This document shows positions 17,278 to 64,000 of a stretch of DNA of 64,000 nt, in pieces. The notes under the pieces are model-generated. The model was not told the origin of the DNA, did not search any database, and was given only the letters and a program-made list of their open reading frames with translations. Both the position numbers and the translations under genes were made by a program. The stretch comes from Cyanidiococcus yangmingshanensis (lineage: Eukaryota > Rhodophyta > Bangiophyceae > Cyanidiales > Cyanidiaceae), in the NCBI GenBank assembly GCA_013995675.1, contig VWRR01000003.1:780004-844003 (forward strand). Reading direction: 5' to 3'. How positions within the stretch are numbered: position 1 is the first letter of the stretch; each line of letters starts with the position of its first letter.

Positions 17278-18576
17278 TCAAGTCGATCGACCTGCATCAT
17301 GCATCCTGCGGTGTCTCGGGGCACCACTGGCATCTTGGCTGGTTCTGGCACCCTCTTCCTTCTGCCGAATGAGTTCAATAACGTGTTCTCGAACGCGTTC
17401 CATGAGGACGACTTTTCGCCCAGAAGCTCCAAGACCATACGCTCGACAATATTGGCGAAGTGCTTGCATCGGGACGCGGTCTAGCCGCTCCATGGCGACC
17501 AACAGTGGCCAATCGTAGTCTAATCGGGAGAGTGCTTCCAGCGCCTCGAGGCGTTCCTCGGGGGGAATGCGCCTCAAGGACCGCTGCGCCCCTGAGCCGC
17601 TCGTCTCGGACGCCGATAATGTGATATCATCCAGGGACGGCGGTGCCGGCAAGTCCATAGATTTGCGTTTGATCTTCGCAACCTCCTCGAACCGAAACTC
17701 GGTCGGCACGTCTCGACCGAGCCAGCGCAGGTTCACGGTCAACTTACCACGCACGGGACTCACAGACGCCACAACCCCTTCATGCCCCGTTAGGTTACCT
17801 TTCTGGACTCGTACATGATCACCCGCTTGAATGTCAAGCTCCTGCGTGAGCATCTTCGATCCCTTCAGGATCTGTTCGAAAATGCGTTGAACCTCAGTCT
17901 CGGTGAGTGGCAGTGGTTGCACGAGTCCACGACCCCCTACGAGTGCACCCATGCGCGTTCGACGCGCCCGGTCGCGCCCAACAAACTGTACGACGTACGC
18001 TGTGGAGCGAACAAACTCCCAGGTCTCCTCGTTCAGAATCATCTGAACCATGACGTAGCTGGGGAATACCTTCTCCTCAAATTCAACGCGCTCGCCACCC
18101 GGAGAGAGCTGCATCGCCTTGAGCTTCGGAACAAGAACTTGTAAAATTTTGTCATTCATTGAGGGCGTGTTTCGTACTTTGGCCTCCAACGTCATTCGCA
18201 CGTTATCCTCAAGCCCCGGCACGGTCTGAACAAGGTACCAGTGCGGTTTCTCTCGCAGAATCGACGGCAAATCTAGTGTCACTCCCGCAGTCGCCAAAAT
18301 CACTGGTTTCGCCTCTGCTTCCTCAGAGGGAACTTGGGACGAAGCCTCATCCTGTGCGGAGCGCGCCGACAGCGACTCTGGTGAAGGGTCCGCGTCCTCC
18401 ACCTGACTCCGCAGTCCGAGCACCCGTTGACGAACCGAGGTTCGCGTTCCCGGAACCCCGCAGGTGCCCCAAGGCCAACGCGTACGTACGAAACAAGTAG
18501 ACCCTGTGTTTCCCGTCTGAAAGACCGAGAAACTCACCGGCTGTAGAGCACGCGACAAGACTGCACCAGAGAACAT
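17278..18576 (-). CDS. nusG: Plastid-type NusG/KOW transcription factor with SAP-like tail
   Basis: NusG-family transcription elongation factor, 432 residues from ATG 18576; further upstream only TTG is available. The N-terminus (MFSGAVLSRALQPVSFSVFQ) has the Phe-containing, acidic-poor look of a red algal plastid transit peptide. The NGN domain begins with HWYLVQTVPGLEDNVR near residue 120 and contains the KVFPSYVMVQM strand. A KOW motif follows (AGDHVRVQKGNLTGHEGVVA). NusG binds the clamp of bacterial-type RNA polymerase and affects pausing, so the likely partner is the plastid-encoded polymerase. After the KOW domain, about 120 extra residues end in a SAP-like helix pair (VPMQALRQYCRAYGLGASGR), a putative DNA/RNA-binding module not found in bacterial NusG. 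The frame is intact. It is divergent from the beta-adaptin gene. Confidence 0.9.
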   Translation of the reverse strand: MFSGAVLSRALQPVSFSVFQTGNTGSTCFVRTRWPWGTCGVPGTRTSVRQRVLGLRSQVEDADPSPESLSARSAQDEASSQVPSEEAEAKPVILATAGVTLDLPSILREKPHWYLVQTVPGLEDNVRMTLEAKVRNTPSMNDKILQVLVPKLKAMQLSPGGERVEFEEKVFPSYVMVQMILNEETWEFVRSTAYVVQFVGRDRARRTRMGALVGGRGLVQPLPLTETEVQRIFEQILKGSKMLTQELDIQAGDHVRVQKGNLTGHEGVVASVSPVRGKLTVNLRWLGRDVPTEFRFEEVAKIKRKSMDLPAPPSLDDITLSASETSGSGAQRSLRRIPPEERLEALEALSRLDYDWPLLVAMERLDRVPMQALRQYCRAYGLGASGRKVVLMERVREHVIELIRQKEEGARTSQDASGAPRHRRMHDAGRST

Positions 18577-26205: not shown

Positions 26206-29200
26206 CTACCAACAATTACACCAACCGACATACGCTGGGGCCAAGTTCTCCGAGCTCGTCGCCTGCTGAATGAGACGCTCCACTTGCGCTGCGACCGAGA
26301 GTGTCTGTTGCGGTTCAAAGTCACGGCCGCTTAGTTTCTGCGACATGCGCTGGACAATGGCGACAGCTCGTTCGCCTCGGTTCTCGTCACCGAGTGCCTC
26401 CTCGGGGACAGGCTGTGCTGGAATCGGTTGGCCTGCAGCGGCACCCTGTCATCAACGCTCGGTTCGTGGCGCCAGTCCGATGGCCCTGGCTCGGTGATGG
26501 AGTCTCTGCAATGCCCTTCCTCAATCGCCCCGGTTGTACCAGCATTCTGTTGCTCGAGACGTAGCGCTGCCCGTAACGACATGGTCCCTTGGAGTAGACG
26601 CAACGACAGCGAGACGCTGGCCTCATGGGCTGCTCTCGACGCTGCCATCCCTCCTGGTCGACATGCTCGCGACGTGGTTGGTCCCTGCTGCTGCCGCTGC
26701 TGGTGACGACCACGACGACGAGCACCACCACTGGTCAAGTCTGTATCTCCATCGACTGCGTCCACGGCTCTCTGAATGTCCGTGGCCGCATCCTGGCCAT
26801 CGTTCTGGTCTGCGTCAGAGTCACTAGAGGCCGACACAGGCCGTGCTGGAGGACGACTTGGCCAAACCGCAGGCGTATGGAGCGGTGTACCGACCTGGAC
26901 TGCCGCTGTGCCTGTCAATGTCGTCATGGCCGTTGTCGTTGCGATGTTGTTCGCTGGCTGCAGCGTGCGTACCAACAACGGATCGTGCACAAAGATTTCC
27001 AACATGGCCATCAACACGGGCTTGTTGGCTCTGAGGATCTGCATGGTCGATTCACAGGTTGCTCGAAAGATGCCCTCTACGCCAGAGACACCCAGTGCGC
27101 GCACCAACATGCGCGTGAGTCGAAACGGAACCTTCTCGGGATACTTTTCGCGATGCATTGCAGTCTCAAAACAGTCGCCATGGTCAATATGGATCACTTT
27201 GCCGGTATCACGCGTAATGAGAATGTTCGAAGGGTGTCGATCACCGAGTCCAATGATGTAACCGACCATGGACATGACCGCCAACGAGCGAGCGTAGTTG
27301 GTGCGACGTTCCAGCCACATCTCTGCACTGCGACTGCGCAGCCACATGATATTGGCCAGATCGTTACCGGACGTGTTGGCCAAGACGTACTCGAAAATCT
27401 CGACTTTTTGGAGCAGCGTTAAGTTGTCATAATCGGGCGCAGCCGACAACATGATTCGATGCTCCACATTCAGGATAATTTTGCGTTGTTCGCGGTACTC
27501 CCGAATGAGGGCATGCAGGGTGTCGCAGTTCTTGACCCAACCGATGAGACCAACCGACTGGCTCAGTGGCAGCACCGCATAGGTAATGATGGACATCTCT
27601 GGTGGCAGGAGCGTATTCACCAGACCAAAGAACTGTTGAACGCGTTCGTCTTGTCGAAGATCTTCGTGTCCCTTGAGCAGGAACGGATACTCGTGACCGT
27701 CCGAACCATAGATCGTTAGGGTTCGCGGTCGCTGCTTTGAGCTAATCACGTTCAAAACGGGTGCGAATGAGACGATTGTGACTCGTTCTCCAGTGCCTGG
27801 GACGGCAAGGTCGAGGTTCTGCGCTTCGAGGAGCGCTGGCGACACTTCGGACAACTGCAGCTGGGTCATACTCGAGAGGGACTTGTTGATGCGCCGAAAA
27901 ATGGAGTAATAGAGCTCCCAGGCCTGATTCATGTCGGATTCACGACCGCTGGCCAGATAGCGACGGCACCATTCGCGAGCTTCGGCAAGCTCTCGACCGA
28001 ATTCGCGCACAAACATCGTCTCACGGGCGGTCGTCGGTCCAGCCTCCACCATGTCGTGTAGCGGCGAGAGAATCGCCAACATGCCCTGGACGTCGTGGTC
28101 ACCAAAATAGACTCGGGAGGCTTCTTCGAGCGCCTCGTGCCACATCTCTGGCCATAGGACGGCAACCCGAACAAGTTCCCGAGATACGAGCTCCGCTTGT
28201 TCAACCAGCGTTGGTGACTCGAGACGCAGCGCTTGGAGTACATCCATGGCGGCCTCACGTCGACGCAGGTTGCTCGACTTGGCTGCCACTGCCAGTGGGA
28301 AGACCAACACCTGGGGATGGGCTCTCCCAACACGGATGAGGAGCGCTCGAACACCCGCTTGGACTGGCAAGACCGGTGAATGCAACCGAGCGACAATCTG
28401 CGGAATCACATCGACCCAGGTATCGACATTGGTCTGCGCAAAGCCATTCAAGAGCGCTTGTTCAATCTCCGGAACAGCACCATAACGGAACCAGAGCGTC
28501 AATAATTTGAGAGCATCTTGTTCCTGCTCTGCATGGCTCTCACCGAGCGCAATCGCTCGAAAGAAGCCATTCACAGCATTGAGTACATATGCTCGCACGA
28601 GTACGTTGGACTCGGCCGCAGCCACTGCCGCTGGTCGAGCAGGCCAGGCACCGCCAAAGCGACCACCAGTGCTGTAGGCTGCGGCAGCGTCGGCATTCAG
28701 CGCTGCCCAGGTATGCCATCCGGAGGACCAGGTCGGGTCAGCAACTGCTGCTCGTCGAGCGTGCTCCATAAAGATATGCCAACGCATGGCCGAGAGGGTG
28801 CCCTCCGCGCGCAACGCTCGACCCCATATACTTAGTTTCAAAAAGCGTCGCGCTGCCAGACGAGGTGCCACTGAACGCTGCACTGATCGACCAAGTTTTT
28901 CGTATGCCTCCTCATGTTTGCCCTTGGACCAGAGCAGTTTGATGGAGGCGTACTCCACTTCGGGATCATCGGTATCGTCCTGAAGCATCTGGAGCACCTC
29001 TGCGGCCATGGGCAGTCGATTCTCTCGTCGACAGAGACTCACAAAACGTAACCAGGTCCGTTTGTCCTGTTTCGGCTCCAGCAGCAAGCTCCGAACGAGC
29101 AGCGTCTGATGCCACGTTGCATAGTCGAATCGACAGCCATCCAGTCGAGCATTCCATAACTGTTCCACGTGGCTCTGGGGTAGCTGTCGTTGCAGTACCA

Positions 29201-32200
29201 TGGCACATTCCTCGAGCTCAACAAGCTGTTGGCTTCTCAGGATATCACTATAGGCCCGCGGATATCCTTCACCGACCCGAGCGGTTACGCCCGTGTCCAA
29301 AAGCCGTCGTCCAGTGCGGATGTGTTGCCGTGCTGCCTCGTAGTCGCCCTGATGAATCGCCAGAATCGCCCGATACAGATTACCGAGGATGCTTTCGGAG
29401 CTGGTATAGCGAACACGTTCTGTGAACCTGTCCCAGTGTCGGAGTCGAAAGGCGACTTCAGCGGCCTCTTCGGCGAGCTCCTCAAGCTGGGTTGATGTGT
29501 TTGCGCTCTCCAGCCAGAGCGCTTCACAGAGTTGCTCCATTCGGTGGAGCTCCCCGAGCTGGGCCAGACAGCGAATTCTTCCTCGACGATTGGCATAGGA
29601 ATGTGGCGGTGGTTGGCGCTCGTACGAAACCAGCGCCAGATCCCATTGCTGAAGCTTTTCATAACATTCCTCGTGTCGAGCGATGACTTGGCGGTGTTCG
29701 GCATCGAGGAGCGCGCCCATAGCGGCCTCGCGTTGTCCGAGTGCCTCGTAGATGGCAATGAGACTATCGTTACCCTCCATGGCTGCTGCGGGGTTCTGTA
29801 GATACTCTGCCTCTTTGTACCGGAGCGCTTTGGCAAAGGCGCCACAACGGAAGGCCATCGCAGCAAGTTGTCGCAGATCAATCGGTAGCGGTTTCTCATC
29901 GTGTTCCATAAACTCCACGAGACTGAGCAGAACCTGCAACACGTCAAGGGGAATCGAATCACTGGAGAGCGCCATCACCAGATTCTTCACCAACGATGAC
30001 TGATACGAGTCCCTGAGCTCTGTCCAACAGCTCAGAAAGGCAGCGTTGAAGAGTTCACGCGCCAATGGCGGGTGCACCTCCGCCAGTCGAGCACAGGAGC
30101 GCAACGAAGGAGAGCCACTCTCACGAAAGAGTGCTGAGGCCAGACCCGTCATCCAGTCGTTCCAGTCCTCCCGGGTTGCACGTCGACCAACTTGCCATGC
30201 TTTTTGGAGCATTTTCTCATTCACATGATGGCGTCGCCCATCGCCAGAGCCGGATCCGCTGCCACCCAGCGCTTGCTGCTGCTGCTGCTGCTGCTGCTGC
30301 AAGTCCAGCATGGAAGCTGAAGCGACCAACGAGACATGCGAGCCGTCAAGTAACGAGTCCGGACTCAGGCCCAGCAGGCCATCGGTGGCGGCCAGGTCAC
30401 CAAGCGAGCTTGTTGACGCGGTCCGCGCCATGCCATTCAACGAATCGAGTGAGTCGGAACGACTCATGGTACTTCGATCGTGTCGATGAAGAGCCAGTCG
30501 ATGGAGGGCTGACGCACTACCCGAGGCTCCAACCAAAACGTTGTTGTTGTTGCCGCCACCCTGCTGCTGATGATCTGGCTCAGCTGGAGAGCCCACGGTG
30601 CCTGCAGCAGAGGCGGGCGCATTCCCCGAAGCCTGTGATTCAGCCTGGCCAGATGAGAGCACCGTGGTCGAGGACACCGAAACGCCACGAGTAAGCATCT
30701 CCTGAACCAAGAGCGTATAGTAGGCTGCGTCCATACCGAGTCGGGGTAGCAGCAGCTCGAGGAGGTGGCGAGCCTGCCACTGCAATTCTGGAGAGCGCAA
30801 CATCCGGCAGAGCGGATGCAGCAGCAGACTCGCCATATCGGTGAGGTCCAGCGACGCCCAAAGCCGCGGCAAGCGTTTCAGAACCTCAGTGCGAGCTGCT
30901 AGCGGACGTGTCGGATCCTCGAGAAAACGCATCAACGGCGGCAAGATGAGTGCAGCGTAGTCGCTGACTTGAGCACCGAACACCAACAGCACCTTGATCA
31001 CACGCAGCGACATGCTTGGCAGTACCAAGGGCAGTAGAACGGCTACATAGGGACGGAACTCGTCACCTAGCGCGGCACAGAGACACTCCATGAGTGCAAA
31101 CATCGATCGATGAAGTGGCTGAATGGACCAATACTCCAAAATGAGCGCCACCAATGATGCTGCATACGGACGAATATATTGACGGGCAAAAAGAACAACA
31201 CTCGCCAAACCACGAATGACATACTCCCTGAACGGCAAGTCATGGGTGTCTTCCATTTGTGGTCGTAGCATCCACAACAAACGCGGAACGACTGCCGATA
31301 GAAACGGAGCATTCTTCATTCCGAGGCTGGTCATAATGTTGACGATCGCACCAACCGTGTCATAGTGCATTGCCGTCAGCTTGGTATCCGCCAGGATCTT
31401 GTTCAAGGCGTCTAATGCAGCCGATGGAAAGTACTCTTCATTCGCGGTGAAAGGATGGGGTAGGCGTCCAACAAGGGTCTCGTTCTCGTTCGGTGGCTCG
31501 AACTGAATACGACTTCCTCGTGCTGATCCAATCCCTGGATTCGTTACCGGATTCAGGTTGACGAGCGCTCCTCGCCTCTCTTTGCTATTCGCGTTTGTTG
31601 GCACTGGTTTGGTCGTTGTTGTTGTTGTCTCGGGACGTGCATTCATCTGACCAGGGGCCGTGTCCAGAGGCACATAGGGGTAGCGAGTCCGATCCAGGAG
31701 CAAAGGTGCCGATCGTTCTGGATCGACTGCACCTAATGTACCAATCGTCCGTTCAATTTCCAAACGAACATTCAAGTTGCTCTCTGTACGAAGAATTCGT
31801 AATAGAATCGGTAGCAGGCTCGGGATACTGGGTATAGAGCTCGGTGGCTTGCACCAGTGGCGCGTGCCAAGCTCGATAGCGTTCGACAGGCGGCTTCTCG
31901 AAGCTCCGTCTCCACCGAGGTATGTTGGAGAATCTGGAAGCAGATGCGGCATGGCATCGTGGAGAAGCGTCTGCAGTTCAGCGCCAAGGCCTCGCTCCGC
32001 CAGACAGGCAATGCTATGAAGTGTGTGTACTGTTGAGGTATCGGCAGCAACCGCACTCGTAGAGTTCTTCTGCAGTCGATTCACCAGCAACGTCGCAGTG
32101 GCTGGAATGTACGGCTCGATGAGATGCGGTGCGTCCTGAATGAGTCGGAGCAGCAGCCTCAGGGCGTCCTCTTGAGATCCTTGAAGCGTTTCACGCTCAC

Positions 32201-34202
32201 ATTCAAGAATCATGCGCAACGTCATGAACATTCGACGCAGAGACGGCAACGTATGTGCCGGGTTGACACTCGAGAGACGACCTACCAGCGAGAGGGCTCG
32301 TTCTCTCACCGTAACGTCTTCGTCGTGGAGTGCCAAACAGAGCGCCCGGACGAGTTCCGGCTGAGCCAGATACCGTTCGAAAACCTGGAAGTAGTCAGGT
32401 TTGGCGAGGCATACAAGTGCGTCAGCTCGGACACGACTGTCCGGATCGGCTACAACGACAATGACCAGTTGCTGGAGCGTCTCAAACAATTTCACTCGGA
32501 GCAATTGACCTGGCGTCGAGGCCCGAATCGCCCAAGCCAAGAGGTGCAAGGAGGCCGCAAATGCCGCTGGTCGAAGGCTGCTCTTCCCGTACAGATACGG
32601 AAGCACATGCAGACGCACATACTCATCTAGACAGGGGCGTTTCTCAAAAGCGAAGCGCTGTAGCGCACCCAATGCACAGGCAATATCTGTTGTCTCCGCA
32701 CATAGACGAAGAATGCGGGCGTGAAGCATGTCGCGTAAGCAGGGAACGTGTTCAGTAATGCGCTCCAGAGCCTCTACCAGCGAGACGCTCAGTCCGAGCG
32801 GTAAGATGTTTTCGTCCAGGAGCTCAGCGAGCCGCACGCTTGTATCTGTGTCGGTGATGAGTCTCGAAATCAACGCGATACATTCATGCTTGGCAGACGG
32901 GGAGACCTGTCCGCTCCGAAGCACAGCGAAGATGTGCTCCATCCATGGGAGGGCCATGGTTGGTCCCACTGCAACGGCCAGTTTGCCCAAGGCCACCACG
33001 TCTTCGTTCTCGAGGGCCATCGACATGCCCAGTTCCAGAAGAGCCGCATCCCGACGAACCATATCCGGCAGCAGTCGGAGGACAGCCGCTCGAATGAGTC
33101 CATCTCTGGCCGTGCGCAAGCTCTCCAAGCGTTTTCGCAGACGGCTAGCATGTTGGTCCAGAAATACTGCGGAGAATGGATTACGCACCAGCTCATGGAG
33201 TGTAAGAAGGGCACCGTGGTTCTCTGCTGGTGACGACTCTCGCTCACTTGAAAGCAGCAACTCTAAGCATCGGTTGATGATCATCTGGCAAGTTCGCGCA
33301 CTGTCATCCGAGGCTCGTTGTTCAAGCAATGCCAAGATAGAGCGCAGCAGACTGGCACTCTCGAGACGAATAGCGGGTCGACTGTCCGTGAGACCCTTCC
33401 AAATAACCTGGGCCAGTTGAACTCGGGAGGTATACATCGAGGCTGGAACATCGACGCACAGTGCATTCAGGACCATGATGGCTATCCCTTTCAACAGCAC
33501 GCTGTTGGTGTTGAGATACTCCAGCGCTCGGATAGCTTCTGCTTCGACAAAGCGGTTCACCAGCACACCGCCCAGCCGACTGAGTCGACCAAGTATGCCT
33601 GCTGCAGATCGAGCAGAGTCCCAATCCGGCGGACGACGCAGTATTGGACGCAAGCCGTTGTAAGTACGCTGCACCTTGCCTCGATAGGCCTCACCGCGGG
33701 TGTCGATCAGGGCGTCGAGACCAGCCAAACCAGCCAGTCGTTCTCTTTGACTCGACGAGTTGATAAGGCTTTGAAGACGATGAGCGAGCACTTCACTCAG
33801 TGAACTCATTGCCTCGGGTTGCTTCAGGGTCTGGAACTTGCGTTCGTACTGCACACGTAGGCGATGAGCTGCCTCCTGTCGGCTCTCTGCACTCGATGCT
33901 TGTTCTAGCTGCAGCAGTACGCGCTCGAGGGAGGCGTCAAACAGGGCAGGTCCCATCGTGGTTATCCCAAGCAGGCTCTGTGAGATGCTTGTCACGAGCC
34001 CGGGCATCGGCGTTGCCCCTGTGCTATTCCAGCGCTCTGCAACGTGTCCACTGAGCGAAGACGCTCTACTGCGACCGCTCAAACCCGAGGCGTGTTGTGA
34101 ACGACCAGCTGCCTGCAGAGGAGCAAGCTCGTCATGACCTTGCGTGCCATTCAAACGAGTTGACAGACTAGACCGAGCCGGTGAGAACGCACCCGCAGAC
34201 AT
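26206..34202 (-). CDS. TOR: TOR (target of rapamycin) protein kinase
   Basis: Giant PI3K-related kinase, ~2,665 residues from ATG 34202, the catalytic subunit of TORC1/2 controlling growth. The N-terminal ~1,500 residues are HEAT-repeat like, interrupted near residue 1,304 by polyglutamine (CAG repeat). A FAT domain follows. The FRB domain near residue 2,017 is very conserved (EMWHEALEEASRVYFG, including the Ser contacted by rapamycin-FKBP12). The kinase domain has LLKGHEDLRQDERVQQFF, the catalytic loop GLGDRHPSN near 2,321 and the metal-binding motif HIDHGDCF near 2,338, which reads DHG instead of the usual DFG. After EKVPFRLTRML the frame runs through a ~200-residue low-complexity insert. 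The FATC end (KLSGRDFEPQQ...AYVGWCNCW, stop 26206) is in another frame; the switch lies in 26396-26448, near GGGG 26404-26407. Confidence 0.96.
30271..30303 (-). repeat. CAG/CTG microsatellite in TOR (polyQ)
   Basis: CTG repeat on the plus strand, coding about nine glutamines on the TOR strand between the HEAT and FAT regions. Confidence 0.85.
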
Positions 34203-34663
34203 AGCTCGTGAACGCTCCAAAACACATACGCAACGTTGTCGTTAGCGCAGAGCGAGTCCCCGGGTGAGCCCCAATGCTGCTCGAACTTGACTGGTCTTCG
34301 GTCGAGTACCTTGTGGATTTCAGCAGGCTCCAGTTTCTCGCCACTGTCGATCAGTGTGGGGAAACACGTCCAGGAACAGTGCACGAGACAGCGCTGCCAA
34401 CACACCCGTTTCTCGTCTCGTACTGCAGTGGTTGCGTTCGCGTGGAAGCGCGCCAGGGAAACGTTGGAGTCTCTAATCCCAAGCAAAGAGTGTCCAGTGA
34501 TGAAACGTCCAGGAGTCAACTCCTTGGGAACTGGCGACCAGTATCGAACGAAACGATCTTTGTCTGTTCGGGTGGTGGCTTTCCGTTGAAGAGCGCTGGT
34601 GCAGGAGCTCGGGTGCGCTCGATAAGATGCGGAGCCGGAGCCGCTAGACGACTTTTCATGAAC

Positions 34664-56731: not shown

Positions 56732-57640
56732 CTATGATGCTTTCTGTTTTGGCGATGATGGCTTTGCTATCGGCGATGATGCCCGCTTTTGGTTGGAGCG
56801 CCGGCTTGCAGCGTTCAAATGCCTCGTTCGCTGTTTGAGCATATGACTGTAGAGAAACGGAAGTCCTGGAATATATCCTAGCAGGGCAATACTGCAGAAC
56901 AGGCTAAAATCAAAAGCAAAGTTCCAACGATTTGGCATGTTGATCTGCAGAAAGTTTGTCTCTCGAATAAGGGGTAGCGCTCTAAGAACCGACCATATTT
57001 CAGCACTAACGCCAATCGGATACAGCACCAGGAACATGGAATACCGCAGCCAGGTAAGCCAGGTTGGAACTAGTTCATGGACTGAGAGCAAGCCACCGCT
57101 TGCCATACTGCCGTACGACAAGACTGTAAAATAGGCATAGCGCACAACCTCTGTGGCGGACCAGGCCGAGAGCAGTGCCAGGTATCCGCTGTTTGCGGTC
57201 TGCGCGATTGAAGAGGCAAAACGTGCTATCGTGAACCAGAGCACAAAAAGGCGAGAGCAAATTTGGAGGGCCGTTGTGCTCGGCGAAGCACGAACCCACC
57301 CCAGCAAAGCATGCACGAGTTCCAAAACTGTGACAGTCTGGAACACGAGAAGCAGCTTCAAGGTGGAGCCCAAAAGATGCGCCTCAAACCTCTGCCAGTT
57401 GCTGTCTCCGAAACCCAATAGTACCTTGAGTGGGGGTGGTGACCACCAGCCCAAGAGTACGTAGCTTGAGCACTGCACGACCGGCAGTCGAAGCAGCGAG
57501 CCAAGGTTGTTACCGGCGGGCCCTGAAAAACACAACTCTTTCCAGAAACGGCCCACCTGAACCATAAGCTCCATGAAAATCCAGGTCCAACCACCGAAGA
57601 GCGCAGCGTTGTATAGAAAAAGCCAGGTCTTCACGGACAT
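56732..57640 (-). CDS. PHS1: 3-hydroxyacyl-CoA dehydratase (PHS1/PAS2/HACD)
   Basis: ER membrane enzyme for the third step of very-long-chain fatty acid elongation (dehydrates 3-hydroxyacyl-CoA to trans-2-enoyl-CoA). 302 residues from ATG 57640; the open frame to 57793 starts only with GTG. Matches: LYNAALFGGWTWIF; FQTVTVLELVHALLGWVRAS; WSATEVVRYAYFTV; RYSMFLVLYPIGVSAE with the catalytic Tyr and Glu seven residues apart; and NRWNFAFDFSLF. The tail ends in a lysine-rich stretch, as expected for ER residents. The frame is intact. It is the last conserved gene before the subtelomere. Confidence 0.93.
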   Translation of the reverse strand: MSVKTWLFLYNAALFGGWTWIFMELMVQVGRFWKELCFSGPAGNNLGSLLRLPVVQCSSYVLLGWWSPPPLKVLLGFGDSNWQRFEAHLLGSTLKLLLVFQTVTVLELVHALLGWVRASPSTTALQICSRLFVLWFTIARFASSIAQTANSGYLALLSAWSATEVVRYAYFTVLSYGSMASGGLLSVHELVPTWLTWLRYSMFLVLYPIGVSAEIWSVLRALPLIRETNFLQINMPNRWNFAFDFSLFCSIALLGYIPGLPFLYSHMLKQRTRHLNAASRRSNQKRASSPIAKPSSPKQKAS

Positions 57641-60626
57641 GGCTTCCAGGACAGCGTGTTGTAGAGCCCTGCCGCCAGGTACCCAAGTTGACGATGCCAG
57701 CGGCGAGCCCGCGGTGTCAGAGACCCATTGGTGGCGCTTCGAACATGCGCCCTGCTGCTTTGGTCCACGAAAGACTGTTTTGTGGGGAGCCACCGAGCGG
57801 CAGTAACAATGATATTGCGTAGGGTACTGCGAAACTGAACTTTTCTACGGCTCCAGGTGAGCATTGCTCTTTTCCAAGAGGACAATCTTGAGTTCTGCTT
57901 GGAGCGCCTCTAAATTGGAAGAATTCGATAAATTTTTTTAAAGATTGAGGACGCTGCCGGAGTCATTGAGTATGTTCTAGACTCATTCGTTAGCTCAAGT
58001 TGCATGTCCAAAAATTGACTACGATGAGCTCATATAGAATCCCCGATAGCTGCTTTTGCTTTTTTGCTTGCGTATGCTGCTGCTTCTGCTCGTTGCTTGG
58101 TAGAGGTAATTGAGGGATTCTTATCGAATCGTGCCAGAGCACGTCTAGTGCAACAAGCATAAATGAGCTCCTGCAGCACCTAAAAGACAAACATGAATTT
58201 GATAACTAGTCCTGTGTGGATGACTAATGAAAACCCAGGATTTGCGGTACTTTCCTGAGAGCAAGGATACACGTTAGGGTTCTACATACAGGGGAGAAGA
58301 ATCCATGATCTTACGAGAGTATCAATCATATGAGGGTACTATGGACTGCGCTGAGGTCGGTAGCTGGAAACAGCACCGTAGCTGGCAAGCACTAGCGCGC
58401 TCCAACAAAAAGAGTCGTTCCTAGCTCGCACCCTGCAAGAGAGCAAGTCGGAAAGAATCCAATTAAAACAGTTTTCTGGCACTAGCTATTAAAAAGATTC
58501 TAGAAAATTATCTTCTCTCAAAGACAGAAAACACATGTCATCCAAAAGGTAAATAGTAATCTAAAATCCAGATGAATGCAGCGTGACCTTGGATAAACAT
58601 GTTATGCACTGCTGATGCGGACGCTATGCCCCAGTGCACTAGCAGAGATCGCGAGACGGAAACCCATGAACGCAGCTCAGATAAGTGGATACAAACTCTG
58701 ATTCTAAAAGAATCAGGCTTCAGCACCACTTTGGCTATTGTATAACAACCGACAGAGCCCTTGGAAAACAACGATGTACACTAATAGGCGATGTGCTTCA
58801 CACGGTCGCTTTCAAGAAAGTTTGGAGTATCTCAGCGCTGCTCCGGGAGAAATCGATACTACTCTCAGATGTGTACACATATTCAGCAGGTTGAAAAAAA
58901 TGCATCGGTATACGAAAATTCCAGGACAGACGCTGCAGCAAAAGCACACATCCTGCAAGCTCATTCAAGCATAGCTCCCGAGGAGGGAGGAGACAACTCT
59001 GGCAGAGCAGCATCCACATAAAGTTGGTTCAGCTAGATATTTACAGACCACAGTGACCAATTTATCTCCATCTACTGCTTCATATCCGATAAGGAAGTCG
59101 CACAACTGATGTATGCACTTGTTAAGCACCGTGCATAGAAGGCGTGCGAGAACGTATCTGCATTGGCGAACCTGTCTTACAACATGAGCAATCAGATCGC
59201 GCTCGAGTCCGCAATGCATGATGCCGCCAGAAATAGTAATTCGTCAGCAGGAGGGTACGTGTCAAGCAGCCTCGCAGCTATTTCTGTCTGCGCAAGTCCC
59301 TGGCGTACCTGTGTACCTGAACTATAGCAGCACATTTGATCCGCAAGTAGCAGCAATGGCAGAGAAATTGAGGCCAATCGAGCTACGATGGACGCAAGGA
59401 GCTGGAACCTAACCCACACAGACACAATGAAAATACAACAAGGGAGAAATAGACTGCTAAAATAGAATGCACGGGGAGTGACACACGTAAGAGGCACAAC
59501 ACAAAAGCTTGAAAACGTAGGTTAGAACTCGAGAATATTTTGAAGAGGGTTGAATTCGAAGAAACACCGGAGGAAAACATGGATTTCTTCAACTTCAATC
59601 AAAGCTCCTTAAAATGAATATGGGTTCGAGGAAGCCCCAAATTAAAACCGATTGAAGTAATCAGATATACTACCAAAGGCATTCCACAGAGAATTCGGGC
59701 AAGACGATGTGCGGCATTTCTGTATTCTAGAGGCGACTAGTCATGTCCAAGCTGAGGCAGCGAGCATCCAAAGCCGTAATAGGAAACCAAGAAGACGAAA
59801 TAAAACTGATCGGAGGAGGCTAAAGACGACTGTAATTGGACAAGGCAACGGCATGTATCCAAAGACGTGGCAAGGGCCTAGATATTGATGAGAATGATAA
59901 AATAGCGGCCCAAGACAAATCTAACATAACAACAGGGCAACAAACAGCCCTTTGTAAAAGCACTCACTGGATCTTAGGCCAGAAGAAGAAATATCACAGG
60001 AACCGACCCAGCAGAATTGATACCGAACAAAAAAACAAGAGGCACCATTCATCCCAAAGAAGTTGCAATGGATGCAACAGTGAAAGGAAAACTGTAACGT
60101 TATGTGCTACGGCAAAAAAGGGTACTCGAATGAAGAAGGCAAGATGAGGGTGAGTTTGAGTTATATGACGCATGGCTTGAATGGATGAAATGAGGTGACC
60201 AAGGTGGGAAAGGTTGGGATTGCATTACCAGCCCTGGTGAGTCTCAGTCACTTACGACTGCTGGCAGCTGCAGTGGTGTTCGAAAGTGCAGATCTACCAA
60301 TCACGGCCCAAATCAGATGACTTTTATTCAGAGATCTGGCCGAGAAACTTGTGCTTAATTGCGATACAGCTCCGGACAAGCCTTGTCAGGAGCCAACAAA
60401 ATCGAGCTGTTTGCGCCACAAAGACGATCCCGCTGAGCATTTGTTGGCTGCAAATGAGCGTCTGATATCAGAGGATTCTGCTCTGGATACTTCTCAGGTG
60501 GCAATGCATATACCGGTCCATAAAGATCGTTAGCTTCCATACCGAACCGATGTGCTGGATCAGCGTGGGTACTTTACCGAGCAGGCGAAGCGGTACCACT
60601 GCAGGATCGCCAAGGTCTTCAATAGC
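57641..60626. other. Subtelomeric A-rich, gene-free region
   Basis: From about 57900 the base composition shifts: the plus strand becomes rich in A, and open frames are short and unmatched. I see no rRNA or tRNA. Sequence at 60351-60626 may be an extension of the decayed gene next to it. Confidence 0.6.
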
Positions 60627-61301
60627 CGGCGCGACAGCATGGAGGAGTCTACTCGATCCATAGAATCGCCCAAGAATGTTCTACCGACGATGTCGGATGG
60701 TTCCATGAAGCGGAATTCTATGCAAGAAATACCAAAAAGACGCAGAAACCCTCGGCGCTGCTCGGTGCTATTTTGCAAGTCGAAAATGTACCGAGCAGAT
60801 TATCGAACGAAGAGATCGACATATCTAGTGAACCGATCTCTATGACGGCAGGTCTCTCGGGTGGTGTATCCCCGAAGCTTTCATCTTTGTATCATGCGAT
60901 CTACGACGAAGCGGAACCGATTCCTGGCGGCGAAATATATCTCGGCGATGAATCGGAGATGCGTACACGACACCCGCGACGCTGCCCTGGAGCGGAGGCG
61001 CAGTAGTCTCGCGATCTGGGTTAGAGGTACGCTCGAGCGCTCACAGACACGGCCCTTGTCCCGGTTGTGGAGGCTGTGACCGGTTCCGTCTCGTCGACAA
61101 GCAGGGACCGGCCCCTTTATATGCTCTGCCGACGGCAGAGAACTTGCACACGATCCTCGCTACGGCGCTCGCCCGGGTGAACGCCGTGATTGAAGACCTG
61201 CACGCCAACGGCTCACGCGGAGCGAGGCCTCGCTGCTGGAAATAGCCGTTAAGCTTTCACGAGACCTCAACGACGGAGAGGAGACACCATGCGGGTCCTG
61301 A
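60627..61301 (+). pseudogene. Decayed bacterial-type gene overlapping the monooxygenase start
   Basis: Three open stretches in successive frames read like one protein. 60627-61006 contains KPSALLGAILQVENVPSRLS and DEAEPIPGGEIYLGDES. 60952-61245 contains HGPCPGCGGCDRFRLVDKQG and ALPTAENLHTILATALARVN. About 61215-61301 ends in SEASLLEIAVKLSRDLNDGE. The last stop (61299-61301) overlaps the ATG of the next gene (61289) in a different frame, a layout typical of bacterial operons. No ATG start and no family are recognised. The C-x2-C-x2-C cluster might bind metal. Either mutational decay or assembly indels explain the frame changes. Confidence 0.5.
61275..61283 (+). promoter_or_regulatory. Shine-Dalgarno-like sequence
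   Basis: GGAGAGGAG, five bases before the ATG at 61289. It is a textbook bacterial ribosome binding site in spacing and sequence. It should not work in a eukaryotic nucleus, so it points to bacterial ancestry of the gene that follows. Confidence 0.6.
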
Positions 61302-62575
61302 TTATCGGTGCCGGTACTGGGGGCTTGGCCATGGCTCACAAGCTTAAACAAGCGGGTATCGGGGTCTCGGTATTCGAGCGCGATACCGTTCCCAACGCGG
61401 ACACCGGCGGCTACCGGGTTGGAATCAGTCCCGCCGGAAGTCGGGCACTGAAAGCCTGCGTACCGCCCGACCTCTACGAACTGTTCGTGGCAACCAGTGC
61501 CCGCGCGCCGCAGAACATGACCATGTATACCGAACAGTTCTCCAGACTCCTGCGTTTCGATCTGGATTCTGGAATAGCGGACGGGGAAAGGAACGTTATC
61601 CGCCAAACCCTCCGTCGGGTGCTGTTGCGGGGTCTCGAACGCGAGGTCGACTTTGGTAAATGCCTCCTGCGCTACGAGACAAATGTAGACGGGACCGTGA
61701 ACGCTTATTTCGAGGACGGCAGCCATGCCAACGGTGACGTTCTCGTCGGAGCGGACGGCACAGGTTCAGCTGTGCGCAGGCAAAGGCTGCCCGATGCTAG
61801 ACTCGAAGACACCGGTATGGCTTCATTCGGCGGCAAGCTGCCTGCGAGCCCCGAAATCCGGGCGCTGCTGACACCTGCCATACTCCAAGGCATGTCCATG
61901 ATCCTAGCACCTGGGGGCTTTGGCGCCATTATCCATTCTTTGGATTTCTCAAACCAGCGGGCTGATCACCATTTTGTCAATCGCTGGCCAGATTTTGTAG
62001 ATGCACTCGACGACAGTATCGGCTGGGGCCTTTGGGGTGCTCGGCAGAACTTCCCACAAGATCCAGATGGATTGAACGGAGAAGCACTTCAGCAGTTGGG
62101 ACTGGTAGTCACGCGCAACTGGGCGCCGCAGATGCGAGAATTAATCGGCAGAACGGACCCCGTGACGATCGCTTCAGTCCGGGTAAGGACCTCCATCCCA
62201 GCATCACCGTGGGAGAGCTCATGCGTCACGATGCTCGGCGACGCCATCCATACCATGACTCCCGGGCGTGGTGCCGGCGCCAACACCGCCCTGCGCGATG
62301 CTGCCCTGCTCGGGGACTTGCTGATCGAAGCCGATCGAGGAAAACGATCGATGGTGGAGGCAATCCGAGACTACGAGGCGGAGATGCTTCGCTACAGTGC
62401 CGAAGCGGTTCGGGAGTCCAAGAAACAGATGGACGGGAAGGCCCTGATCCATCGACCGCTCATCGGCAACGTCCAGCTTGCTCTGATGCGATGTGCGATG
62501 CGAACCATTGACATCGTTCCCCCGCTAAAGCGGCGTGCTCTGGAGAAAATCATGCGGGTGCGGGGAGAGAACTGA
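61289..62575 (+). CDS. Bacterial-type FAD-dependent monooxygenase (PHBH fold)
   Basis: Class A flavoprotein monooxygenase/oxidoreductase, 428 residues, intact frame from ATG 61289. The dinucleotide-binding motif is at residues 7-12 in RVLIIGAGTGGLAMAHKLKQ. The DG motif is VLVGADGTGSAVRR near residue 150. The FAD/ribityl motif is MLGDAIHTMTPGRGAGANTA near 315. Enzymes of this group hydroxylate or oxidise aromatic or polyketide-like substrates with NAD(P)H and O2; the substrate is unknown. The sequence resembles enzymes of soil bacteria such as actinobacteria and Chloroflexi rather than algal squalene or zeaxanthin epoxidases. There is no transit peptide. It sits alone in the subtelomere with a bacterial-style RBS, so recent horizontal transfer is likely. 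Expression in the alga is unproven. Confidence 0.9.
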   Translation: MRVLIIGAGTGGLAMAHKLKQAGIGVSVFERDTVPNADTGGYRVGISPAGSRALKACVPPDLYELFVATSARAPQNMTMYTEQFSRLLRFDLDSGIADGERNVIRQTLRRVLLRGLEREVDFGKCLLRYETNVDGTVNAYFEDGSHANGDVLVGADGTGSAVRRQRLPDARLEDTGMASFGGKLPASPEIRALLTPAILQGMSMILAPGGFGAIIHSLDFSNQRADHHFVNRWPDFVDALDDSIGWGLWGARQNFPQDPDGLNGEALQQLGLVVTRNWAPQMRELIGRTDPVTIASVRVRTSIPASPWESSCVTMLGDAIHTMTPGRGAGANTALRDAALLGDLLIEADRGKRSMVEAIRDYEAEMLRYSAEAVRESKKQMDGKALIHRPLIGNVQLALMRCAMRTIDIVPPLKRRALEKIMRVRGEN

Positions 62576-63895
62576 CGCGGTGATGGACGAGAGGAGGCTT
62601 ACAGAAACCAAGAAAACTGCCAAAGGTGAAGTTGTATTCCTTGAAGTCGTGTGCTCGATAACTAGAATACGGCTGGCTCGGAGCGCCTTTACGGAAGCGG
62701 AATCCGAAGATAATGTAATATCAATCAGCAAAGAAGCCTGGGATCATTAATTCAACGACGAACCCATGATAAAAACATACAGCAACGGCACTGGAAGTAT
62801 AACAAAATAAGTGGAGTCATACAACCAGTCTATAAATTCGTTCTGAAAGCTCAGGGTCAAAGAACGACAAGATAATTCATACCCGCGAACAAACTCTATG
62901 AAACAGATAGAAAAACGGCTAAACTCACCAACAAGAGCATATGGTCTGGGATGGATCAGATTGCAGACTCGAATGTTAAAAAACGATCCTGCCTTAAAAA
63001 GAAAAAGTCGTAAAGATAAAGGAAAAAATGAAACGTAGTGAAAACATCAAAGAAGTACTGGAGCAAAATCATTAATGGGTCATGCGCAAATCCAAGTTGT
63101 CCTTCCATGTTTGTTGCGAGCTCGGCAAGACCGAACTCCGACAAAAATTTTCGTCTCAAATAAAGAGACATCCCATAGACTTCAATAGAACAAAAAAAAT
63201 GCCAAATAAAAAAACCGGGCTACAATAAGAATTTCAGTACCATAGGCACAAAATCATTGGCAAGCATAGAGTCTACAAAAACAAGCAAGAAAAAAAAGGC
63301 TTACTAAGAGCAATGTCGTTCAACAAGCACTAAATTCAATATAATGAGAGTTCGCATCATAAGACGATTCACAGTAATCGTGATCAATGACAGTACAGAA
63401 AGCATCGACAAACAGCCTGAAAGCATACAGAAAAAACCAAAAGAAGTCATTGAGGAAACCAGCGATATAATCGTAAACTGGATATTAAAACCAGAAAACG
63501 AAGATGATGCACGATAACTACGCGGCTTCTAGCTCATCAAAGAAAAAACCAAAAAAGGAAGCGATGACAAGCATGCGTACCTCGAACGACGACAATCAAA
63601 AAATGCCTACAGGGTGGAGTACAAAAAAGTGACCGCTCAGTAAAAACAAACAAGCACAAACCAAGAATAAAAAAAAAATGAAAAAAAACCAAAACAACTC
63701 GAGAGAAAACAACTCCAGAAAAAAAACAGGCCAGAACGAACAGCAGAAAACCAAAAAAATATTCGATACGCATTAAATCAAACCAAACAAAAAATGGTTG
63801 TTGGCGACAATAAAAAGCGAGAAGGACGAAAAAAAATATGACAATTGTAAGTGGGCCTAGCAAAGATGTTGAGTGCAAGGAACTCCAGAAAATTT
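62576..63895. other. Telomere-proximal A-rich spacer
   Basis: Strongly A-rich, T-poor plus strand with many A-runs (for example 63520-63840). Only short meaningless frames are present. No gene, tRNA or helicase-type subtelomeric ORF is seen. Confidence 0.7.
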
Positions 63896-64000
63896 GGGGA
63901 ATGGGGAATGGGGGGAAGGGGGGGAATGGGGGGAATGGGGGGAATGGGGGGAATGGGGGGAATGGGGGAATGGGGGGAATGGGGGAATGGGGGGAATGGG
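63896..64000 (+). repeat. Telomeric repeat, unit AATGGGGGG
   Basis: About eleven units of AAT plus a G-run, mostly six Gs but varying from four to seven, with irregular units at the inner edge. The G-rich strand points 5'-3' toward the window end, as required for a right-hand telomere. The unit is the one known from Cyanidioschyzon merolae. Confidence 0.95.

Follow-up and report, generated by a model that had tools for sequence, protein, structure and literature searches.

Our analysis makes it highly probable that a bacterial padR-monooxygenase fragment was captured as DNA near a chromosome end of the red alga Cyanidiococcus yangmingshanensis, the regulator gene being broken and the reading frame of the enzyme open. 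The window, by which we mean the whole stretch of 64,000 bases that was analyzed, comprises the last 64,000 bases of an 844,003-base contig (C14) in a genome of 12,072,675 bases and 20 contigs, and its position 64000 is the final base of that contig. The published C. yangmingshanensis genome is given, in the part of the source available to us, as 12.0 to 12.1 Mb in 20 contigs, with 54.6% GC and the telomere unit AATGGGGGG (PMC13353863). The window contains the following features.

26331..34220, minus strand: native TOR kinase gene, 27 kb from the monooxygenase gene, the synteny anchor (relative, CCYA02G0450)
56732..57640, minus strand: gene of the hydroxyacyl-CoA dehydratase family (PF04387), beyond which no further native gene is recognizable up to the telomere
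61001..62600: block of high GC in 200-base bins, probably corresponding to the imported DNA, with a soft left border
61138..61265, plus strand: C-terminal 43 codons of padR (profile columns 164 to 206), split between two frames by a single frameshift near 61207
61275..61283, plus strand: Shine-Dalgarno-like GGAGAGGAG, separated from the ATG at 61289 by five bases (ACACC), weak evidence alone
61289..62575, plus strand: intact FAD monooxygenase gene (428 amino acids; PF01494), an open reading frame (ORF) without an inner stop
61299..61301, plus strand: TGA closing the frame of the second PadR piece and overlapping the monooxygenase start
62601..63890: A-rich spacer between the island and the telomere, without another copy found in the genome
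63891..64000, plus strand: telomere array (GGGGGGAAT)n, a tandem repeat at the contig end, with the array start at 63891 to 63903

The intact FAD monooxygenase that had been read from the letters alone is confirmed by a PF01494 match of the 428-residue protein (65.3 bits, against a cut-off of 22), which places it in the class A FAD monooxygenase family. The motifs GxGxxG, DG, and GD of class A FAD monooxygenases are represented by G7-G9-G12, D156-G157, and G317-D318, all invariant in a 34-row alignment. The predicted structure has a mean pLDDT of 89.1, and residues 324 to 328, in the FAD-binding loop, form the sole segment below 50. Its best solved fold match is 4hb9 from Photorhabdus (E value of 3.6e-36; TM scores of 0.79/0.89), which has the same fold and 32% identity in the structural alignment. 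HpxO and Tet(X) structures come next, with 22 to 26% identity; HpxO (3rp6 to 3rp8) likewise shares the fold, at 22 to 23%. In the model the enzyme looks structurally sound, and it keeps the FAD-binding motifs and the class A flavin monooxygenase fold.

A named identity (HpxO, Tet(X), or other) was rejected, as no cut-off was reached in the 25 of 64 NCBIfam families examined. The best score among these 25, that of the HpxO equivalog, is 107 bits against a cut-off of 500, so that the algal enzyme differs from HpxO to an extent that makes the HpxO substrate not transferable; Tet(X) scores 74.4 against 750. With the cut-offs of these families unreached, a substrate assignment is impossible. Judging from the family, the enzyme would most likely use NAD(P)H and O2 to hydroxylate a foreign compound, small and aromatic or of a similar kind.

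A protein search in which 7,996 candidates were scored yielded 2,652 relatives, and the best 120 of these were listed. Closest among the 120 is CCYA02G0440 of C. yangmingshanensis (P0002; 98%, 420 of 428 residues identical without gaps), which is also the only named eukaryote among them. It is followed, within the same 120, by the environmental proteins P0003 at 79% and P0004 to P0011 at 71 to 74%, while named Rhizobium, Steroidobacteraceae, and Alphaproteobacteria records stand at 64 to 67%. A tree of 139 rows places P0003 as the sister of the algal pair (SH-aLRT of 96), within a cluster of environmental proteins. When 45 of those 139 rows were analyzed with full bootstrap, the algal pair and P0003 grouped at 100/96, inside a 12-row cluster with P0004 to P0011 and P0041 at 100/98. 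The enzyme is thus nested among bacterial or metagenomic proteins in both trees and not among algal proteins; such nesting in bacterial relatives, here with metagenomic nearest rows, is the pattern of a horizontal gene transfer (HGT) from bacteria. Within the 40-row ingroup, the rows with a named organism all belong to the Pseudomonadota (Rhizobiaceae, Phyllobacteriaceae, and one unplaced alphaproteobacterium), a composition that points to a bacterial donor, probably near the Alphaproteobacteria.

Linkage of the gene to native genes is seen in both genomes, on its own contig here and, in the second genome, by locus numbers on one contig. The TOR kinase of the window has its best match in CCYA02G0450 (2447 of 2500 aligned columns identical), and CCYA02G0440 and CCYA02G0450 are found on one 848,887-base contig, ten gene numbers apart, in agreement with the 27 kb that separate the two genes in the window. 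The two genomes would therefore carry the monooxygenase gene at corresponding chromosome ends, its position in the second being deduced from the locus numbers. Because the gene and TOR share a contig there, the gene is to be regarded as resident, which argues strongly against contamination or a chimera. A chimeric assembly, or contaminating bacterial DNA attached to the end of the chromosome, could be suspected for a single-copy, GC-rich monooxygenase gene that adjoins a contig end (the only other match in its own genome covers 55 residues with an E value of 0.003), but is scarcely credible in view of this linkage and of the nearest bacterial protein, which shows at most 79% identity among the best 120 of 2,652 relatives. 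Furthermore, since two genomes hold the gene, the transfer predates their split. The sequence-only reading had proposed a recent transfer; the transfer itself stands, whereas “recent” is weakened by this split and by the 79% identity of the nearest other relative among those listed.

Relatives of the TOR kinase (83%) and of the dehydratase (70%) are encoded on an 88,520-base environmental contig, which probably represents a sister alga with the same gene neighborhood.

The identity of P0003, encoded on a 3,495-base environmental contig, bears on the age of the event. If P0003 were itself algal, the gene would have entered an ancestor of Cyanidiococcus and a relative; its 79% is similar to the values of the TOR and dehydratase relatives on the algal-looking contig of 88,520 bases. 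We consider this older transfer unlikely, however, because P0003 nests with P0004 to P0011, several of which are labeled as bacterial-type enzymes by their source, and because none of the best 120 of 2,652 monooxygenase relatives is located on the 88,520-base contig.

In bacterial genomes, a scan with the single sequence found no relative, whereas a scan with the family alignment found 259, of which the best 80 loci were kept. A search of bacterial genomes for a shared gene pair had been suggested; a padR-monooxygenase pair was found in 20 of these 80 loci. Among the 15 loci with at least 60% identity, 14 carry a padR-type gene directly upstream on the same strand, the exception being L035. 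The padR call was based on a sequence pattern suited to Alphaproteobacteria, so that a missing PadR in 60 of the 80 loci is not firm. The gap between padR and the monooxygenase ATG is 4 to 10 bases in these 14 loci, and the three upstream neighbors that were checked all match PF03551. The pair of Rhizobium, Mesorhizobium, and relatives (loci L025 to L034, L036 to L038, and L041) resembles the algal locus in order, strand, and short spacing, with monooxygenases that are 62 to 68% identical in the best search segment, but its PadR is intact, whereas that of the alga is truncated and frameshifted. A relative was also found in 102 plasmid records, the best at 65.7% in Rhizobium phaseoli (a record without annotation). 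Among the literature-search matches listed, no relevant paper on PadR beside flavin monooxygenases was found.

To compare these loci with the window, a profile was built from 20 bacterial PadR proteins. In six-frame translation, it aligns to two neighboring frames upstream of the monooxygenase gene, in pieces that abut at profile column 187. Singly, the pieces are weak (the first scores 4.0 bits, with an E value of 0.0095, and the second -2.8 bits), and a Pfam search of both gave no match up to an E value of 10. The best upstream tblastn match, which extends the first piece back to 61090, has an E value of 0.022, and a chance match at 17521 to 17928 on the minus strand reaches 0.003. A frameshift-tolerant alignment of columns 164 to 206 to 61138 to 61265, with one frameshift, scores 92.6 half-bits. 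The controls remain far below this value: 60 Markov shuffles have a mean of 33.2 (standard deviation [SD], 3.8; maximum, 43.3 half-bits), 56 plus-strand window segments reach at most 45.3, the reverse strand scores 28.5, and 638 segments, taken from both strands of window positions 1 to 61000 and of 20 left contig ends, have a mean of 32.6 (SD, 3.8; maximum, 47.7). In the same test, the region 17521 to 17928, where tblastn gave its chance match, scores 38.4. The remnant is identical to 12 single bacterial PadRs at 16 to 21 of 43 residues; for reference, the Mesorhizobium PadR of locus L032 matches the other eleven at 25 to 29 of 43.

The PadR N terminus (163 columns) was undetectable in the window, with frameshift-tolerant scores of 25.6 to 34.4 in four settings against control means of 30.7 to 37.9. 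The N-terminal winged-helix DNA-binding domain (PF03551), present in all three bacterial neighbors tested, is accordingly undetectable there. Judged by these alignments, the window holds a PadR remnant and no complete PadR gene, and the order of padR tail and then monooxygenase follows that of the donor, as does the spacing, the C-terminal part of PadR lying at the matching distance from the monooxygenase ATG. It could be argued that the monooxygenase gene was transferred alone and that the upstream similarity to PadR is due to chance, given the weakness of the single pieces and the lack of a Pfam match in either. This is very improbable, as the pieces abut in order at one profile column, in a neighboring frame and at the donor distance from the ATG, and as their joint score of 92.6 compares with no more than 47.7 in 638 segments. 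With bacterial relatives brought in, the upstream reading frame of the sequence-only reading thus proves to be real, a PadR C terminus far beyond chance. Its proposal that a piece of an operon arrived, and not just a gene, also holds, with padR upstream in 14 of the 15 closest bacterial loci and a PadR tail at the matching place in the alga. Two neighboring donor genes are present together in donor order, as in a horizontal operon transfer, but only one of them is intact; the locus is an operon fragment and not a working operon.

The start region itself is less informative. Both GGAGAGGAG before the ATG and the overlap of the upstream TGA with the gene start were found where they had been described, but the Shine-Dalgarno spacing, offered as a bacterial sign, turned out to be weak evidence. 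The core of the match is 5 bases, and a core of at least 5 bases at a spacing of 3 to 14 occurs in 4 of 55 long ATG ORFs of the algal genome, as well as in just 2 of the 20 bacterial loci listed for this signal. With an equal or longer match in these controls, it was rejected as proof of bacterial origin. The GC content at third codon positions (GC3) is 0.65 for the monooxygenase gene, 0.55 to 0.61 for nine window ORFs, 0.66 to 0.69 for eleven rhizobial loci, and 0.82 to 0.85 for two other loci; the difference from the nine window ORFs is suggestive only and was not accepted as proof of foreign origin.

Between 61001 and 62600, each of the eight 200-base bins has a GC content of 0.55 to 0.64. 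The values are 0.34 to 0.53 in the seven bins from 62601 to 64000 (0.43 in the first one after the island) and 0.37 to 0.53 in the twelve bins from 57801 to 60200, with intermediate values (0.49 to 0.55) from 60201 to 61000, so that the inner GC step is softer than the outer one. A GC-rich island with lower flanks had been claimed and does exist, except that it starts near 61000 and not at 60627. We conclude that the captured fragment is about 1.6 kb long, with a right border near 62600 and a left border that either lies near 61000 to 61090 or has decayed past recognition. The stop codon of the monooxygenase gene is about 1.3 kb from the telomere array, the distance originally reported. A search for a second copy of the flanks (57800 to 61100 and 62576 to 63880) in the alga's own genome found none, and in 20 left contig ends no match (E value up to 1e-3) starts before 63891, i.e., outside the telomere repeat. 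With no other copy of the flanks found by these searches, nothing indicates that the island was spread as part of a duplicated subtelomeric block.

The outer subtelomere is A rich on the G-rich telomere strand, with an AT skew of +0.10 to +0.41 (58401 to 60200) and +0.29 to +0.68 (62601 to 63800), a strand asymmetry not shared by the imported island. Six left contig ends that start with telomere repeats (L007, L009, L010, L017, L021, and L023) are the mirror image in their first 2 kb (1 to 2000), T rich with an AT skew of -0.17 to -0.20; at the other left ends the skew varies from -0.15 to +0.19. The telomere repeat occurs in the first 100 bases of 6 of the 20 left contig ends and is absent there from 14, and given these 14 the assembly may be unfinished at many contig ends. 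The NIES-4659 Ha1 assembly is described, in the accessible part of the source, as 20 telomere-to-telomere contigs (PMC13353863). For strain NIES-4659, RNA-seq, proteome, and H3K27me3 ChIP data have been produced according to the same source. Short telomere-like inner stretches with 82 to 85% identity exist about 4.5 kb from two contig ends (L019:4503-4558 and L008:4516-4556).

We consider it slightly more probable than not that the enzyme is functional today. The other reading, that bacterial DNA landed by chance and that a non-functional relic has kept its frame open only because too little time has passed, is a serious possibility to which we do not incline. It draws on the broken regulator next to the gene and on 2 of the 8 differences between the algal copies, which affect columns where at least 98% of the other rows agree, compared with 7 of 153 differences in 12 disjoint bacterial pairs (binomial, 0.049; Fisher, 0.065); over all 71 bacterial pairs, 52 of 1,098 differences fall in such columns. 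One difference, G326K in P0002, the copy of the other genome, places a lysine in the FAD-binding loop where all 32 non-algal rows have glycine, and to judge from this conservation the change may be damaging. In reanalyzed data of the Cyanidiophyceae group, subtelomeres are marked by repressive H3K27me3, according to the part of the study at hand (PMC9812998). On the other hand, both algal copies have 428 amino acids and align without gaps. Only 1 of the 126 columns invariant in the 32 other rows is changed in both copies, on a stem that may lie partly in bacteria. In amino acid sequence, the two genomes diverge about as much in this gene as in TOR (8 of 428 residues versus 49 mismatches in 2500 columns). 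Two strains of the species reportedly differ by 1.26% in the section of the paper seen (PMC13353863); if this value applies, eight amino acid changes are too few to exclude neutrality.

Taken together, the comparisons support an origin in which about 1.6 kb of bacterial DNA, comprising the padR 3' end and the complete FAD monooxygenase gene, entered the nuclear genome of a Cyanidiococcus-like alga. They likewise suggest that the fragment was fixed about 1.3 kb from the telomere before the two sampled genomes split. Part of a neighboring gene came along in donor order and spacing, which speaks for the uptake of DNA rather than of a single processed gene. The likely route would be its capture when a broken end of the chromosome, in a gene-poor subtelomeric region, was repaired. 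With PadR truncated and frameshifted, operon control would have been lost, and any expression would need an algal promoter or background transcription.

The locus is a further case of the known horizontal transfer into algae and yeasts, set apart by the fact that a remnant of the upstream donor gene can still be read. About 1% of Cyanidiophyceae (Cyanidiales) genes are of horizontal prokaryotic origin (PMC6629376), and some transferred genes are amplified in subtelomeres (PMC9812998), as stated in the portions of these papers available. The monooxygenase gene resembles the HGT genes described there in being a bacterial gene with an intron-free frame, in the same algal group and in a subtelomeric place (PMC6629376, PMC9812998). 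It differs from what those portions describe in that the remnant of the donor's upstream gene is still recognizable and in that it is single copy and, among the best 120 of 2,652 relatives, so far limited to Cyanidiococcus. In the operon transfers of Wickerhamiella/Starmerella yeasts, as far as the available text goes, neighboring bacterial genes also arrived together by DNA, and in one species acquired genes accumulate in domains at the chromosome ends; however, the yeasts have working multigene pathways, whereas the alga has one open gene and the broken tail of its neighbor (PMC13376923). In the open-license literature, we found no mention of CCYA02G0440 and no paper that combines Cyanidiococcus, HGT, and a monooxygenase.

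Bacterial genes in eukaryotes are often claimed on the basis of nothing more than a tree; here, the broken tail of the neighbor is still readable. From the PadR tail it follows that the alga took up raw DNA rather than a processed message, and the tail helps to set one border of the fragment; the scrap is probably a neutral stretch beside a gene that is perhaps under selection. More tentatively, chromosome ends of these algae may be an entry door, where broken ends capture raw bacterial fragments. A transferred gene would first lie beside the telomere with scraps of its old neighbors, transcribed by background activity; the scraps would then erode and a useful gene would be kept. The locus may represent an early stage of this process, with a functional enzyme freed from PadR control. 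Cyanidiococcus is transformable, according to the part of the report consulted (PMC13353863), and thus both the function of the gene and the chromosome-end entry route are open to testing.
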